Shown: positions 40,698 through 52,838 of the stretch, one piece after another
How positions within the stretch are numbered: the first letter of the stretch is position 1
Layout of the letters: each line of letters starts with the position of its first letter
Source of the DNA: Henriciella aquimarina
Lineage (GTDB): Bacteria; Pseudomonadota; Alphaproteobacteria; Caulobacterales; Hyphomonadaceae
NCBI RefSeq assembly: GCF_002088975.1
Contig: NZ_NCST01000001.1
Coordinates: forward strand, 1-64,000
Direction of reading: 5' to 3'
Length of the DNA: 64,000 nucleotides
Made by a program: the position numbers and the translations under genes
Notes under the pieces: generated by a model
The model's database searches: none
Told to the model about the DNA's origin: nothing
What the model saw: only the letters and a program-made list of their open reading frames with translations

Positions 40698-40830
40698 TCG
40701 ACGCCGGGCCCGTTTCGGGCTATGGAAAGAGGGCTGCGTGACTGGCGCTTGAGGTGGGCCACCACCGGGGAGCGCAGCCTGACAACGCCGTGCGCCTGGG
40801 CATGAACCTCGATGAAAAGGAGGGTTGCCC

Positions 40831-47553: not shown

Positions 47554-48729
47554 TTATGCCTTGCTGAGCACCACCCGGGCGGCTTCGTGGCAGGCTTCGA
47601 TCTCGCGGTCGAAGCCGACACAGAGACGGGTCCAGCTGTCATAGCCCGGCCAGGTGCGGCCCACGACGCGGACATTCAGCTTGGCCATCTCCTCGGCGAA
47701 GACGGCATGGTCCATGCCGGTATCCATATAGATGAAGCTGCCTTGCGGCTTTGGCGCGATGGGCCGGCCGAGATCGGCGGCCATGGCGATCAGCTTTTCG
47801 CGGCCGCGAATATTCTTCGCCCGCATCTCGTCGAACCCGGCCGAGTCCTCGAGCGAGGCGGTGCCGGCGATGAGGCCAAGATGGTTGACCGAGCTCAACT
47901 GGCCCGACTGGCGCATCCAGGTGACCATCTCGGCGGGCATGACGGCATAGCCGAGACGCTGGCCGGCAAGGCCGTAGAGCTTGGAGAAAGTCCGGCAAAC
48001 GATGACATTCTTGCCGTCCGAGACGAGCGACTTCATCGTATTGTTCGGATAGTCGTCCGACATTTCCAGATAGGCTTCGTCGATGAAGACCATGGCTGTC
48101 TTGGAGGCTTCTTCGGCAAAGCTCTTGAGCTTCGCCGCATCGACCGTGCGGCCCGTCGGATTGTTCGGGTTGCAGATATAGACGCTGGAGATGTCCGGGC
48201 CCATGCGTTCGGCCATGGCGTCGAGGTCGATGCCCATTTCCGAGTCGAGCGGGGTATAGATTACCTCGCCGCCGAAGTGTTCGGTGGTGCGCGGCACGGC
48301 TTCATAGGTGGCCATGGAGGTCAGCAGCGCGCCTTCCTGCTTGGCGGCCCACATGCCGAACAGGCCGAGAATGGGCGAGGAGCCATTGGTGACGAGCACC
48401 TCTTCAGGCGCCACGCCTTCCAGCTCCGCAACCTTTTCGCCAAAGCCGATCAGCGAGCCATAGGAATAGCGGTTCACGCCGGCGACTTCCGCCTTCATGG
48501 CTTCCATCGCTTTCGGGAAGGGGCCGAACGGGTTCTCGTTCGAGGACAGGATGGCGATGCTTGAGGCGGCCGTCGCAGCGGTCTGGGCTTCGGCTTTCGG
48601 AGCGGCTTCGCCCGTGCAGCCTGTCGCGGCCAGCGTGGCGAGCCCGGCCGAGCCGGCCCCGGCCAGCCTGAGGATGTCGCGGCGCGAAGCGCAGAGGGAT
48701 TCGGACGGGGAGAAGAGGAGCGGTTTCAT
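47554..48729 (-). CDS. Tat-exported lipoprotein aminotransferase, HisC-like (class I/II)
   Basis: PLP-dependent aminotransferase of 391 residues with histidinol-phosphate aminotransferase-like features. SNENPFGPFPKAME, NGSSPILGLF, ICNPNNPTGRT, VFIDEAYLEMS and the PLP lysine Lys250 in RTFSKLYGLAGQRLGYA are all present. The N-terminus is a twin-arginine signal, SRRDILRLAGAGSAGLATLA, running into a lipobox at Cys38 (AATGC). So it should be folded with PLP in the cytoplasm, exported and lipid-anchored. It is just upstream of the histidine operon but on the other strand. I started at 48729; the frame opens 14 codons earlier. Confidence 0.88.
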   Translation of the reverse strand: MKPLLFSPSESLCASRRDILRLAGAGSAGLATLAATGCTGEAAPKAEAQTAATAASSIAILSSNENPFGPFPKAMEAMKAEVAGVNRYSYGSLIGFGEKVAELEGVAPEEVLVTNGSSPILGLFGMWAAKQEGALLTSMATYEAVPRTTEHFGGEVIYTPLDSEMGIDLDAMAERMGPDISSVYICNPNNPTGRTVDAAKLKSFAEEASKTAMVFIDEAYLEMSDDYPNNTMKSLVSDGKNVIVCRTFSKLYGLAGQRLGYAVMPAEMVTWMRQSGQLSSVNHLGLIAGTASLEDSAGFDEMRAKNIRGREKLIAMAADLGRPIAPKPQGSFIYMDTGMDHAVFAEEMAKLNVRVVGRTWPGYDSWTRLCVGFDREIEACHEAARVVLSKA

Positions 48730-48953
48730 GACATGGTTCCGGATTGAAGTGACTAGACGTGGCCCGGACACGGCGGCTGGACCTGATTGGGAAAGCTACT
48801 GCGCGCCAGTGGGGGCTCCGCCGCGTCAGCCGTCAAACGGGAATTCGAAAGCTATGCGAATTTGCAGGTTTATTTTGGCCGATTGCCCTGAAAGCAGGCG
48901 GGTTTGCATCCATTCCGTCAGGCCGGGGCCCGCCGAGACGGGACTTGCCCGGC

Positions 48954-48982
48954 TTGACTTCGCCGCCGCCCCGCCATATTCG
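48954..48982 (+). promoter_or_regulatory. Predicted sigma-70 promoter of the histidine operon
   Basis: TTGACT (48954-48959), 17-bp spacer, TATTCG (48977-48982). A start about 7 bases later falls at 48989-48990, two or three bases before the leader ATG at 48992. The transcript would therefore be leaderless or nearly so. An inverted repeat AATTCG/CGAATT lies upstream at 48842-48862. The rest of the 48730-48953 stretch shows no gene. Confidence 0.6.
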
Positions 48983-48991
48983 CCGTTCGCA

Positions 48992-49030
48992 ATGAACACG
49001 ATGCTGCACCACCATCACCACCACGCGTGA
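48992..49030 (+). CDS. hisL: Histidine operon leader peptide
   Basis: A 12-residue reading frame encoding MNTMLHHHHHHA, with six consecutive His codons (CAC, CAC, CAT, CAC, CAC, CAC), stop at 49030. Its position right after a promoter and before mutually exclusive hairpins and hisS identifies it as a regulatory leader: when charged His-tRNA is scarce the ribosome stalls at the His codons. A second in-frame ATG at 49001 would also include all six His codons. There is no Shine-Dalgarno; the predicted mRNA start is at or beside the ATG. Confidence 0.85.
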   Translation: MNTMLHHHHHHA

Positions 49031-49107
49031 CGCGCCCGGCGAGGCGCGAACCGGTCCGGCTGCGCCTCTTCCAAGTGTTCATTCCTTCCCGTTGAACCGC
49101 CAGAGGC
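49031..49107 (+). promoter_or_regulatory. Transcription attenuator of the hisS-hisZ-hisG operon
   Basis: Four pairing segments follow hisL: 1 CGCGCC (49031-49036), 2 GAGGCGCG (49041-49048), 3 GCGCCTCT (49062-49069) and 4 AGAGGC (49102-49107). Pairing 1:2 (6 bp) excludes 2:3 (7 bp), and 2:3 excludes 3:4 (6 bp, with an inner GTTCA/TGAAC helix at 49077-49081/49093-49097). Segment 1 starts right after the leader stop. No clear U-run follows segment 4, so termination may need Rho or the switch may act on translation. A further hairpin GCTTCG/CGAAGC (49167-49185) sits near hisS. Confidence 0.7.
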
Positions 49108-49209
49108 AGACAGGCTGACGGCCCGGTATCGCGTCTTGTCGACACGTCGCCTTCACACCCCTACCGGCTTCGTCTAAGGCGAAGCGCGAATGACGAGACA
49201 GGACGCAAG

Positions 49210-50700
49210 ATGAGCAAGAAGAAACAGGACCCGGACGCGCCCAGATCGGGCAAGGATCTCGCCCGCAAGCCGCGCGGCTTCCCTGACCGGCGCGAAGGCC
49301 TCATCCATGCCCAGGCCGAGATGATCGACCGGGTCACCTCCGTCTATCGCCGCTGGGGCTTCGAGGCGCTCGATACCGGCGCGTTCGAATATGCCGACGC
49401 GCTGGGCAAGTTCCTGCCCGACGACGACCGCCCGAATGCCGGGGTCTTTTCCCTGATCGACGATGACGAGCAGTGGATCTCGCTGCGCTATGACCTGACG
49501 GCGCCGCTCGCCCGCTTTGCCGCCGAGAACTGGCAGACCCTGCCCAAGCCTTTCCGGCGCTATGCCGCCGGGCCGGTCTGGCGCAACGAGAAGCCGGGGC
49601 CGGGCCGTTTCCGGGAGTTCCTGCAATGCGATGCCGATACGGTCGGCGCCGCCGGCGCGCATGCCGATGCGGAGATGGTCGCCATGGCCGCCGAAGCGAT
49701 GCGCGCGGCAGGCGCTGGCGATGGTGAGTTTGCGGTGCGTGTGAACACTCGCCGCCTGCTCAACGCAGTCCTCGATGGCGTCGGCGCGAATGGCGAGGCC
49801 GTGCGTCTCACCATATTGCGCGCGCTCGACAAGCTCGACCGGCTCGGCGAGGAGGGCGTGAAGCTGCTGCTCGGTCCAGGCCGCGAGGATGAGAGCGGCG
49901 ACTTCACCAAGGGCGCCGGGCTCGATGCCGACGGGGTCGCCAAGGTGATGGCCTTCGCCCAGGCCGGCCGTCCGACGCGCGGCGAGACGCTGGAAGCCCT
50001 CGGCCAGGCCGTGGGGACGGGCGACGAAGCGAAAGCCGGGCTTGATGAACTCACCGCCATTGCGCGTGGGCTCGAAGCCTTCAACTGCCCGGACAGCGAT
50101 GTCCTGTTCGACCCGTCCGTCGTACGCGGCCTTGAATATTATACCGGCCCGGTCTTCGAGGCAGAGCTGTTGCGCGAGACCGTCGACGAGGATGGCAATG
50201 TGGTCCGTATCGGTTCGGTCGGCGGCGGCGGGCGCTATGACGATCTCGTCGCGCGCTTCACCGGCGAGAAGGTGCCGGCGACCGGCTTCTCGGTCGGTAT
50301 CTCGCGTCTGGCGACAGCGTTCGCGATCACCGGCAAGGTCGATCAGCTGAACGGTCCGGTCGTTGTGCTGAACCTCAACCGCGAGGACCCGAGCGAAGCC
50401 CTCAAGCTCGCCACAGAGTTGCGCGCCGCGGGCATTCGCGCCGAAGCCTATATGGGCAGCTCCGGCATGCGCCCGCAGATGAAATATGCCGACCGCCGGG
50501 GCGCGCCTGTCGCCGTCATGGTCGGCGAGGACGAGATCGCCAAGGGCGTCGTCACCATCAAGGATTTGAAGGAGGGCGCGAAACAGGCTGCCGCCATCAA
50601 GTCCAACGAGGAATACCGCGAAGCCCGCCCCGGCCAGTTCGAGGCCCCGCGCAGCGAGATGATCGCCCGCGTCCGCGAAATCGTGGAGGCGGCCGAATGA
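49210..50700 (+). CDS. hisS: Histidyl-tRNA synthetase
   Basis: Class II synthetase charging tRNA-His, 496 residues. Motif 1 precedes residue 60; motif 2 is GPVWRNEKPGPGRFREFLQCDADT around residues 121-144. The His-specific signature is RGLEYYTGPVFEAEL from Arg306. Alphaproteobacterial HisRS is known to diverge where others read G-1 of tRNA-His; this sequence is of that type, with RNEKPGPGRF instead of the canonical RRERPQ. It overlaps hisZ by four bases (ATGA) and is the first gene after the leader region. Confidence 0.94.
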   Translation: MSKKKQDPDAPRSGKDLARKPRGFPDRREGLIHAQAEMIDRVTSVYRRWGFEALDTGAFEYADALGKFLPDDDRPNAGVFSLIDDDEQWISLRYDLTAPLARFAAENWQTLPKPFRRYAAGPVWRNEKPGPGRFREFLQCDADTVGAAGAHADAEMVAMAAEAMRAAGAGDGEFAVRVNTRRLLNAVLDGVGANGEAVRLTILRALDKLDRLGEEGVKLLLGPGREDESGDFTKGAGLDADGVAKVMAFAQAGRPTRGETLEALGQAVGTGDEAKAGLDELTAIARGLEAFNCPDSDVLFDPSVVRGLEYYTGPVFEAELLRETVDEDGNVVRIGSVGGGGRYDDLVARFTGEKVPATGFSVGISRLATAFAITGKVDQLNGPVVVLNLNREDPSEALKLATELRAAGIRAEAYMGSSGMRPQMKYADRRGAPVAVMVGEDEIAKGVVTIKDLKEGAKQAAAIKSNEEYREARPGQFEAPRSEMIARVREIVEAAE

Positions 50701-51797
50701 GCACTCCGGAAGACATCTTTTCGAAGCTTGGCGGTGAGGTGGTCGACCCGCCCATCGTCATGCCGGCAAACCAGCCGCTGGAGCTTTCCGGCGAGGCAGT
50801 GCGTGCGCGCCTTTGCGTCTTCATGGGCGAGAATGGTGAGGAATGCGCGCTTCGCCCGGACCTCACCCTGCCGGTCGCCATGGCGCAGGCCGAGGCCGGC
50901 GTGTCGTCGGAAACCATCAAGCGCTATGCCGCCCGTGCCTTCCGCCTGCCGGCGGTGGCCGGTGATCCGATGGAGTTCACGCAGGTTGGCTTCGAGCGCT
51001 ATGGCGCGCCCTCGACGGCGGAGACCGATGCCGAAGCCTTCGCGCTGGTCTGCGAGGCCGCAGTCGCGGCTGGCGTGAGCGAGAGCGAGACCCGCATGGG
51101 CGACCTCGCCATCTTTCCGGCTTTCGTCGATGCGCTGAACCTTGCCCCCGGCCTTGCCGAAGCGCTGAAGCGCGCCTTCCGGCAGGTGGGCGGGGTGTCC
51201 GCGCTCCTGAAGGCGAAGCCCTCGCAGCCCGCCCATGGGCTGGCCGCCCGGCTGAAGGGCGCACGCCCGGAGGAGGCGCGGGCGATCGTCTCCGATATCT
51301 TCGCGCTCTCCGGCATCCAGCCGCAGGGTACGCGCACGCTCGATGAGATCGTGGAAGGCCTGCTCGCCCAGGCCGCCGATGCCGAACATGGCGGCGCGCC
51401 GGACCTTGCCCGCCAGACACTGGAAGCGGTGATGGCGGTCGATTGCGCGCCGGAACAGGCCGCCGATTCGCTCAACGCCATTGCGCGCCAGGCCGGGATC
51501 GATGGGGTCGACGGGGCGCTCGCTCGCCTCGATGAGCGGGTGACGAAGATGAAAACACTGGCCCCGGCCTTCCTGAAGGAAGCCCGGTTCGGCACGCCCT
51601 TCGGGCGGCGCTTCAACTATTATGATGGCTTCCTGTTCGAACTATTCCGGCCCGGTGAAACCGCCGGCCGCAAACCGTTCGGATCGGGCGGGCGCTATGA
51701 CACGCTGCTGTCGAAACTCTCCGACGGAGCCGTGGACGCCACCGCGATCGGCGGCGTCGTGCGCCCAGACCGTCTGGCACAAGGAGGGGCATCATGA
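50697..51797 (+). CDS. hisZ: ATP phosphoribosyltransferase regulatory subunit
   Basis: HisZ is a HisRS paralogue lacking aminoacylation and needed by HisG for histidine feedback. The 366-residue protein has the class II core without a complete motif 2: ALRPDLTLPVAMAQAEAG, DPMEFTQVGFERYGAPST, YYDGFLFELFRPGET and GSGGRYDTLLSKL. Four-base overlaps with hisS and hisG show coupled translation, matching stoichiometric assembly of HisG-HisZ. Presence of HisZ tells that this organism uses the HisZ-dependent HisG. Confidence 0.93.
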   Translation: MSTPEDIFSKLGGEVVDPPIVMPANQPLELSGEAVRARLCVFMGENGEECALRPDLTLPVAMAQAEAGVSSETIKRYAARAFRLPAVAGDPMEFTQVGFERYGAPSTAETDAEAFALVCEAAVAAGVSESETRMGDLAIFPAFVDALNLAPGLAEALKRAFRQVGGVSALLKAKPSQPAHGLAARLKGARPEEARAIVSDIFALSGIQPQGTRTLDEIVEGLLAQAADAEHGGAPDLARQTLEAVMAVDCAPEQAADSLNAIARQAGIDGVDGALARLDERVTKMKTLAPAFLKEARFGTPFGRRFNYYDGFLFELFRPGETAGRKPFGSGGRYDTLLSKLSDGAVDATAIGGVVRPDRLAQGGAS

Positions 51798-52738
51798 GCC
51801 GCCTGACCATCGCCATCCCGTCCAAGGGGCGGCTCAAGGACAATGCCGAGACCTGGTTCGCGAAAGCGGGCTTCACCCTGAAACAGGCCGGCGGCGAGCG
51901 CGGCTATACGGCGGTCCTGAAGGGCCTGCCTGAAGCCGAGGTGCTGCTGCTCTCGGCGCGCGAGATCGCGCAGGGGCTGATCGACGGTTCTTTCCATATC
52001 GGCGTGACGGGCGAGGACTTGCTCAACGATCTTTCGCCGAATCTCGCGCTCGATGCGTCCGTCATTCAGCGGCTCGGCTTCGGCGGGGCCGATGTGGTCG
52101 TCGCCGTCCCGGCCGCCTGGCTCGACGTGAACACGATGAGCGAGCTGGAGGCCGCCGGCGCCCAGTTCCGCCAGCGTCATGGCCGGCGCATGAAGGTGGC
52201 GACCAAATATCTGCGCTTGACGCGGAATTATTTCGCCCAGAAGTCGGTCGGCGAATACCGCCTGATCGAGAGCGCCGGGGCGACCGAAGCCGCGCCGAGC
52301 TCGGGGCAGGCGGAAGTTATCGTCGACATCACCTCCACCGGAGCGACGCTGAAGGCCAACGGTCTGAAGGTGCTCGATGACGGGGTGATTCTGAAAAGCC
52401 AGGCGGCACTCACCGGATCGCTGAAGGCGGCCTGGGACATGCAGGCGCTGGAGGCCCTTCAGAAGCTGCTCGCAGCCGTCGAGGCGGTCGATGCGGCCGG
52501 GGCGAGAAAAGTGCTCATGGCGGCCAAACCGATCCCGGATTCGCTTCTCGGGGGAAAAGGGATCGAGGTCATATCGGCAACATCTGTTCTCGCGCCTTCC
52601 TCAAGCGCGGGAGAATATGCCCGAAAAATCGCTGAATCGGGGGCAGGACCTGTCTCCATCACCAGTGCCGAGTTCATTTTTGACCAGGAAACGCCCAGCT
52701 TTGAGAATTTTGTTACCAATCTGAAATCGGGCGCTTGA
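51794..52738 (+). CDS. hisG: ATP phosphoribosyltransferase
   Basis: First step of histidine synthesis: ATP plus phosphoribosyl pyrophosphate to phosphoribosyl-ATP. The 314-residue protein has TIAIPSKGRLKDNAETWF at the start, then GVTGEDLL and the PRPP loop EVIVDITSTGATLKANGL. It lacks the C-terminal ACT-like regulatory domain of long HisG and depends on HisZ. It is longer than common short forms because of an extra C-terminal region (LLAAVEAVDAAGARKVLMA onward), which is usual in Alphaproteobacteria. A strong terminator follows at 52809. Confidence 0.93.
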   Translation: MSRLTIAIPSKGRLKDNAETWFAKAGFTLKQAGGERGYTAVLKGLPEAEVLLLSAREIAQGLIDGSFHIGVTGEDLLNDLSPNLALDASVIQRLGFGGADVVVAVPAAWLDVNTMSELEAAGAQFRQRHGRRMKVATKYLRLTRNYFAQKSVGEYRLIESAGATEAAPSSGQAEVIVDITSTGATLKANGLKVLDDGVILKSQAALTGSLKAAWDMQALEALQKLLAAVEAVDAAGARKVLMAAKPIPDSLLGGKGIEVISATSVLAPSSSAGEYARKIAESGAGPVSITSAEFIFDQETPSFENFVTNLKSGA

Positions 52739-52808: not shown

Positions 52809-52838
52809 GGCGCGACCCGAGGGTCGCGCCAATTTTTT
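52809..52838 (+). terminator. Intrinsic terminator of the histidine operon
   Basis: GGCGCGACC/GGTCGCGCC stem with four-base loop followed by AATTTTTTAT, 71 bases after the hisG stop. Confidence 0.9.

Follow-up and report, generated by a model that had tools for sequence, protein, structure and literature searches.

Histidine attenuators and other leaders described so far

Attenuation through a run of His codons is classical in gammaproteobacteria. The his attenuator of Escherichia coli (RF00514) has a His-rich leader peptide and mutually exclusive helices, and it controls histidine genes. These features recur at the locus analyzed here, a leader at 48954-49107 on the forward strand of a 64,000-nt stretch of Henriciella aquimarina DNA (the window). 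Unlike in E. coli, the genes behind the leader are hisS-hisZ-hisG, the ATG is predicted to lie at or near the 5′-end, an extra helix (0:X) can be drawn, and a conserved 1:2 helix and a U-run are lacking. The Rfam model his_leader (RF00514) had no match at gathering score in the whole window and none up to E 10 in 48900-49230. The T-box was likewise without a match in both searches, and the second one picked up just two microRNA families, as by chance. His-codon attenuation in gammaproteobacteria is covered in PMC9413887.

Three other systems come close in one respect or another. Sinorhizobium meliloti, also an alphaproteobacterium, has a trpL leader with a 14-codon ORF, and the RNA of this leader is reported to start at the AUG (PMC10117765); it differs in amino acid and genes, and the 5′-end here is predicted from promoter spacing. 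In bacilli, the hisS*/hisZ leaders carry His codons before a histidyl-tRNA synthetase paralogue (PMC2965389), but these belong to Firmicutes, and the screen reported by Naville and Gautheret (2010) sought T-rich terminators, which are lacking here. The third is the ilvB leader of the same genus, also a leader attenuator in the same organism. A scan found its ORF with an ATG or GTG start in 8 of 16 loci; in others, including the window's genome, a TTG start is seen by eye (13 of the 16 loci viewed). It differs from the his leader in having a purine-rich GGAGG or GGAAA before the start (by eye) rather than a start at the 5′-end, and in having a hairpin followed by 8 T in 9 nt. When trpS was taken as a second control, no convincing Trp leader was found in 16 loci.

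For Caulobacter, 375 leaderless mRNAs have been reported, together with leader peptides before trpS and the ilv operon (PMC4117421); the words hisS and histid- are absent from the main text of that paper. Among the papers listed by our literature searches, we recognized no description of the present leader for Caulobacterales. Attenuation of amino-acid and aminoacyl-tRNA operons is reportedly treated by Lopatovskaya et al. 2010, and that work or Vitreschak et al. 2004 may already predict part of what follows. What is known, then, is His-codon attenuation and the leaders of hisS paralogues in bacilli; what appears to be new is the candidate 0:X helix.

The His-codon frame before hisS

The leader peptide of the window reads M-N-T-M-L-H6-A. 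The earlier note had placed a 12-codon frame with six consecutive His codons between a TTGACT-N17-TATTCG promoter and hisS, and the sequence bears this out, including the 17-nt spacer (Table 1). The genes behind the leader act on histidine, the same amino acid as in the codon run; hisS scores 360.6 bits against its model (cut-off 286.75) and hisG 162.6 bits (cut-off 75.75). On the other side the leader adjoins a divergent gene (47554-48771, minus strand). By eye its product looks like an aminotransferase of the HisC type that bears a twin-arginine signal and a lipobox-like cysteine, and an enzyme of this type would be unexpected there. Elsewhere the window holds a ZMP/ZTP riboswitch (40728-40808; Rfam RF01750, 66.8 bits).

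Table 1. Features of the his leader region and the genes behind it, in window positions.
Feature	Positions	Strand	Evidence
-35 element TTGACT	48954..48959	+	window sequence; TTGAC 35-39 nt before leader ATG in 63/63 leaders
-10 element TATTCG (core CATAT 48975-48979)	48977..48982	+	sequence and alignment with relatives
predicted transcription start, 0-3 nt before ATG	48989..48992	+	promoter geometry
leader ORF MNTMLHHHHHHA, stop included (ATG 48992, stop TGA 49028-49030)	48992..49030	+	sequence and relatives
segment 0, start-codon octamer ATGAACAC, candidate partner of X	48992..48999	+	folds and comparison
six His codons	49007..49024	+	sequence; CAC/CAT changes among relatives
segment 2, CGCGCC	49031..49036	+	fold and alignment
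segment 3, GAGGCGCG, partner of segment 2 or 4	49041..49048	+	fold and alignment
small inner stem CCG-GTC-CGG within hairpin 3:4	49051..49059	+	fold and alignment
segment 4, GCGCCTC, no U-run behind	49062..49068	+	fold, alignment and T counts
X, GTGTTCAT, reverse complement of segment 0; alternative partner Y	49075..49082	+	folds and comparison
Y, TGAAC, competing partner of X	49093..49097	+	alignment test
segment 5, AGAGGC, alternative partner for the second half of segment 4	49102..49107	+	fold and alignment
segment 6, CCGGTATCGCG, could pair late with segment 3 and its loop	49123..49133	+	weak support
CTTCACAC, then hairpin GCTTCG-TCTAAGG-CGAAGC: RNA hairpin and/or second promoter	49151..49185	+	relatives' sequences
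hisS, histidine--tRNA ligase	49210..50700	+	NCBIfam TIGR00442
hisZ, regulatory subunit of ATP phosphoribosyltransferase	50697..51797	+	best matches are hisZ models, all below cut-off
hisG, ATP phosphoribosyltransferase	51794..52738	+	TIGR00070
ordinary terminator hairpin with T6, 3′ of hisG	52810..52838	+	by eye; contrast to leader

Relatives were scanned for the frame, as the earlier note had suggested. The census searched 101 genomes of the family, with a hisS match in 96 and none in five, and upstream DNA was examined in 94, two genomes (G024 and G060) with a partial hisS on the contig being left out. In 63 of these 94 Hyphomonadaceae genomes, hisS has in front of it a short frame that starts with ATG and contains His codons; 31 lack such a frame. 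HisS proteins up to 95% identical to that of the window occur in named Henriciella records. The frame is present in 28/28 genomes of the window's genus, in 2/2 of a sister genus (g8) and in 33/36 of a genus taken as Hyphomonas (g5), and in 0/28 genomes of six other genera of the family. The weakest leader counted (L184) has two His; a frame reading MRHGQRHDER (L229), whose two His are scattered, was not counted. Twenty-one genomes are common to this census and a separate contig search, and the census counts refer to the family-genome set only.

Together the 63 leaders hold 335 His codons, almost evenly CAC (173) and CAT (162). Within the closest clade (n = 14), exchange of CAC and CAT is the only variation at the six His positions, save one TAT; outside that clade, single His give way to other residues. 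A kind of frame conserved in this way before hisS is, judged by the comparison, more than chance. His-codon runs starting with CAT occur five more times in the window's own genome, by a pattern that cannot match the window's own run, and this count was set aside. No viral contig searched held an exact copy of the 28-base hairpin, and the leader had no match among plasmid records.

All 31 Caulobacteraceae-type loci that had enough upstream DNA, drawn from the best 80 of 175 relatives, have a longer frame rich in His, which runs to about 24-26 codons and has its His in two groups. The records carry the names Caulobacter, Phenylobacterium or Caulobacteraceae, or simply Alphaproteobacteria/Proteobacteria; the upstream DNA of L094 and L100 was too short, and L112, a Hyphomonas-type locus, was not counted here. 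A search of 190 genomes of the class gave 28 further loci, of which only L140 has a credible His frame, L128 being doubtful. L140 comes from a distant alphaproteobacterium whose genome measures about 1.2 Mb and has the His-rich frame MKNIVLNHTHHHTHAKHGLGN before hisS, perhaps of independent origin. Four loci (L072, L074, L075, and L112) bear Acidobacteria or Sulfopaludibacter names yet have a Hyphomonas-type hisS and are probably misnamed bins; the leader is present in three of them and not in L074.

The frame also keeps its distance from the promoter. Measured between the first T of TTGAC and the A of the ATG, the distance is 37 nt in 37 leaders, 36 in 12, 39 in 7, 38 in 4 (the window among these) and 35 in 3. 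Since it is 35-39 nt in 63/63 leaders, the start codon probably sits no more than three bases or so from the 5′-end; at the spacing usual for promoters, transcription should begin 0-3 nt before the ATG. The predicted near-leaderless start that the earlier note had put two or three bases before the ATG thus fits the promoter geometry of every aligned leader.

Exclusive helices and a candidate helix at the start codon

Behind the ORF are two mutually exclusive helices, 2:3 and 3:4. In the predicted fold of the window, 2:3 has 6 bp (-10.5 kcal/mol) and 3:4 has 7-8 bp (-15.7 kcal/mol); the means over the 63 leaders are -11.1 and -15.5 kcal/mol, respectively, with 3:4 the more stable in 60. The earlier note had proposed four segments with 1:2, 2:3, and 3:4 pairing, and the latter two are confirmed. 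The 1:2 part was wrong: the longest uninterrupted pairing for such a pause or protector helix is CGCG/CGCG, 4 bp in the window and unconserved, with 5 bp reached in 1 of 63 leaders. That model also overlooked 0:X, the competing downstream partners, and the tRNA-Gln gene of some relatives, all described below.

How the two helices are conserved differs between groups. In 30 aligned leaders of Henriciella and Hyphomonas, 2:3 is invariant and 100% paired, and in 3:4, where 98.7% of cells pair, double changes are absent. Because the helices hardly vary, their pairing in these genera is read from sequence alone, and the sequence appears conserved beyond pairing needs. The Caulobacteraceae-type sequences have diverged. 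Their alignment has 30 loci in 29 distinct rows, L082 being omitted as its hairpin was not matched by the pattern. Here 3:4 is 97.2% paired with 12 double-change cells, a number reached by 0/500 shuffles, and 2:3 is 95.8% paired with four (3/500 shuffles). A control in which 2:3 was slid by +2 gave six double-change cells and a slightly higher score, with only 50% of cells paired.

The new element is 0:X. X, which lies just behind hairpin 3:4, exactly reverse-complements segment 0, the octamer that opens with the start codon. The two can pair, and as the relatives' sequences suggest, both sides change together. The window's clade and Hyphomonas mostly have ATGAACAC/GTGTTC(AT), and the other Henriciella clade has ATGAAAAC/GTTTTCAT; L033 has GAGCA/TGCTC and L184 has ATGAG/CTCAT. 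Over 61 distinct rows, 86.5% of cells are paired and 15 are double-change cells, each value reached by 0/500 shuffles; a double change is seen in four of the eight pairs, which 4/500 shuffles reach. Kinship alone can beat shuffles without any structure. Slid versions of 0:X keep the kinship, and these are 29-44% paired with at most five double-change cells. The 30 sequences of the two clades alone are 94.4% paired with no double change, and covariation emerges once the other Henriciella clade and the outliers join the alignment. The independent events are therefore few, since most double changes come from one clade.

The match can also be counted without an alignment. Segment 0 and X match at 8/8 positions in 31 of the 63 leaders, at seven in 11, at six in 18 and at four in three (L031, L032, and L035, where 0:X is weak). 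Among other octamers of these leaders, seven or eight matches occur in 1.6% and six in 13.9%, and when octamers were swapped between two clades, 8/8 was never reached (0/517 both ways). No 0:X at a constant place was found in the Caulobacteraceae-type loci.

Folding suggests when the helix could exist. In transcripts ending just past X, 0:X has a mean pairing probability of at least 0.5 in 60/63 leaders without a ribosome, against 10/63 once nt 4-8 are scrambled, and it is likely in 58/63 with a ribosome at the stop codon. (With a ribosome on the first His codon it is impossible by construction of the mask). In longer transcripts it is predicted in only 21/63 without a ribosome and 7/63 with one at the stop codon. 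The helix may thus be short-lived in these models, and since the prediction drops on longer transcripts, its effect would fall in the time when RNA polymerase has only just passed X.

Further downstream there are competing partners. One is TGAAC (or GAAC), with which X could pair instead; segment 5 in turn can pair with segment 4. X:Y together with 4:5 is 85.5% paired against 28-52% in slid versions (3/500 shuffles); covariation is scant, the single double-change cell being equaled or exceeded in 383/500 shuffles. Segment 6 with segment 3 is 89.3% paired, with one double-change cell (261/500 shuffles as high).

A proposed ribosome-gated switch and its rivals

The His-rich frame, the near-fixed distance between promoter and ATG, the exclusive helices 2:3 and 3:4, and 0:X, all seen by comparison, make it likely that the leader is a His-responsive, ribosome-mediated attenuator of hisS-hisZ-hisG. 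The earlier note had proposed a His attenuator before these genes, and conservation supports it well. When charged His-tRNA is scarce, a ribosome would halt on the His codons; as the ORF begins at the 5′-end and is barely longer than the ribosome's footprint, the halted ribosome would cover segment 0 and leave segment 2 free. Helices 2:3, X:Y and 4:5 would then form, letting RNA polymerase proceed. When charged tRNA is plentiful, the ribosome would reach the stop codon, covering segment 2 and freeing segment 0; 3:4 and 0:X would form and expression would halt. As 0:X also would hide the start codon, it may block a second ribosome. A possible reason for starting at the very 5′-end is that the rear edge of the ribosome can join the sensor.

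Folds with a ribosome mask mostly follow this scheme. With the mask at the first His codon, 2:3 forms in 41/63 folds and 3:4 in 12; with the mask at the stop codon, 3:4 forms in 54/63 and 2:3 in none. Without a ribosome, 2:3 forms in 45/63 and 3:4 in 15, so that an untranslated leader would not be off by energy alone, the 45 having the ON form. Against the simple model, the window's own leader keeps 3:4 under all three conditions; with the stalled ribosome, 3:4 is the lowest-energy fold in 12/63 leaders, the window's among them.

How would expression be halted? The absence of a U-run behind segment 4, remarked on in the earlier note, is real. Across the 63 leaders, the 9 nt behind the segment hold 3.2 T on average; for the ilvB leaders of the genus the mean is 8.0 (15/15 measured; one of the 16 loci was not matched by the pattern). 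The longest T run is 1 in 39 leaders, 2 in 10, 3 in 4, and 4 in 10. As the ilvB leaders have 8/9 T, the organism uses U-runs elsewhere. The his leader thus probably stops expression without one, through Rho, U-less termination, or an effect on hisS. Our first choice, plausible without being firm, is Rho-dependent termination behind X. It is a guess, since C exceeds G only slightly there (C 0.33-0.35, G 0.26-0.31 in five loci). U-less termination or pausing would be a rather unlikely route, and an effect on translation or stability of hisS mRNA an unlikely one.

The rival that survives best is an ordinary his attenuator in which 3:4 is a working intrinsic terminator despite its weak U-tract and the 0:X match is incidental. 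We hold it to be improbable. Helices 2:3 and 3:4 are conserved, as it would have them; in one clade GTTTTC follows a few bases after the stem, and the leaders with a four-T run within the 9 nt would also suit it. The T counts given above speak against it, the more so as the hisG terminator by contrast has T6, and 0:X covaries.

In a second rival, which we consider quite unlikely, the leader controls translation or stability of the hisS mRNA, the OFF fold affecting the ribosome-binding site or permitting cutting. In the window's fold, GCGTCTTGTC (49131-49140) pairs with GACAGGACGC (49197-49206) at the ribosome-binding site of hisS, and in the Caulobacteraceae-type loci hairpin 3:4 ends near the hisS start. 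By eye, however, the pairing is intact in part of the close clade and none is seen in Hyphomonas. General sequestration of the hisS ribosome-binding site was therefore rejected as a candidate, being present in the window's fold but not kept in all relatives.

Also counting against that rival, in 7/105 family genomes (L020, L021, L022, L025, L028, L032, and L035) the switch and hisS are separated by an intact tRNA-Gln(ttg) gene of the same strand. Processing of the tRNA would part the leader from hisS, which we infer to favor control at transcription. The leader-region tRNA-Gln(ttg) has no second match within its own genome in any of the seven; in one of them, G041, where 30 of 36 tRNA matches were read, there is one more, dissimilar tRNA-Gln(ttg). 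Decayed tRNA-Gln remnants are seen by eye in some sister loci. The leader has Gln codons in all seven loci with the tRNA gene and in 2/56 without it (L029 and L249). On a hisS tree of 40 rows, Gln codons and tRNA-Gln each change three times, which gives too few independent pairs, and a link between them is suggestive only.

The repeat of segment 0 and X could also be taken at the DNA level, as two half-sites of a repressor that binds at the transcription start. The first copy does lie at the predicted start site and the pair is an inverted repeat in DNA, but the copies co-change between clades and outliers and keep G-U pairs between them, a pattern of RNA pairing that makes a repressor site very improbable. 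Equally hard to credit is the notion, drawn by analogy with rnTrpL/peTrpL of Sinorhizobium meliloti, a leaderless tryptophan attenuator with reported trans functions (PMC7298713, PMC10117765), that the peptide, or the short RNA left by attenuation, has functions in trans as well; action in cis explains the conservation found.

One more element bears on attenuation as the favored reading. In most of the 63 relatives, CTTCACAC (or CTTCCAA) and a hairpin with the loop UCUAWG occupy a comparable position before hisS, and by eye the arms of the hairpin covary (GCUUCG/CGAAGC, GCACCG/CGGUGC, GCAUCG/CGGUGC). The stretch 49151-49185 could be a second promoter that keeps hisS on. Such a promoter would bypass the switch and to that extent counts against control by the attenuator.

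Taken jointly, the observations allow a more speculative extension of the attenuator, which we put forward tentatively: a two-handed switch, in which one ribosome on a leader of about its own footprint would work with both edges. The front edge would gate segment 2, and the rear edge would gate the 5′-end, otherwise paired with X; in the OFF state, transcription would stop without a U-run and with the start codon hidden. In the relatives with tRNA-Gln, the leader may also sense glutamine and act on a tRNA gene of its own operon.

If the attenuator holds, it is one that operates with neither a protector helix nor a U-run. One His-sensing leader would then govern the first step of histidine synthesis together with histidyl-tRNA synthetase, in an arrangement that would span several genera of Hyphomonadaceae and also Caulobacteraceae, the family of the model bacterium Caulobacter.
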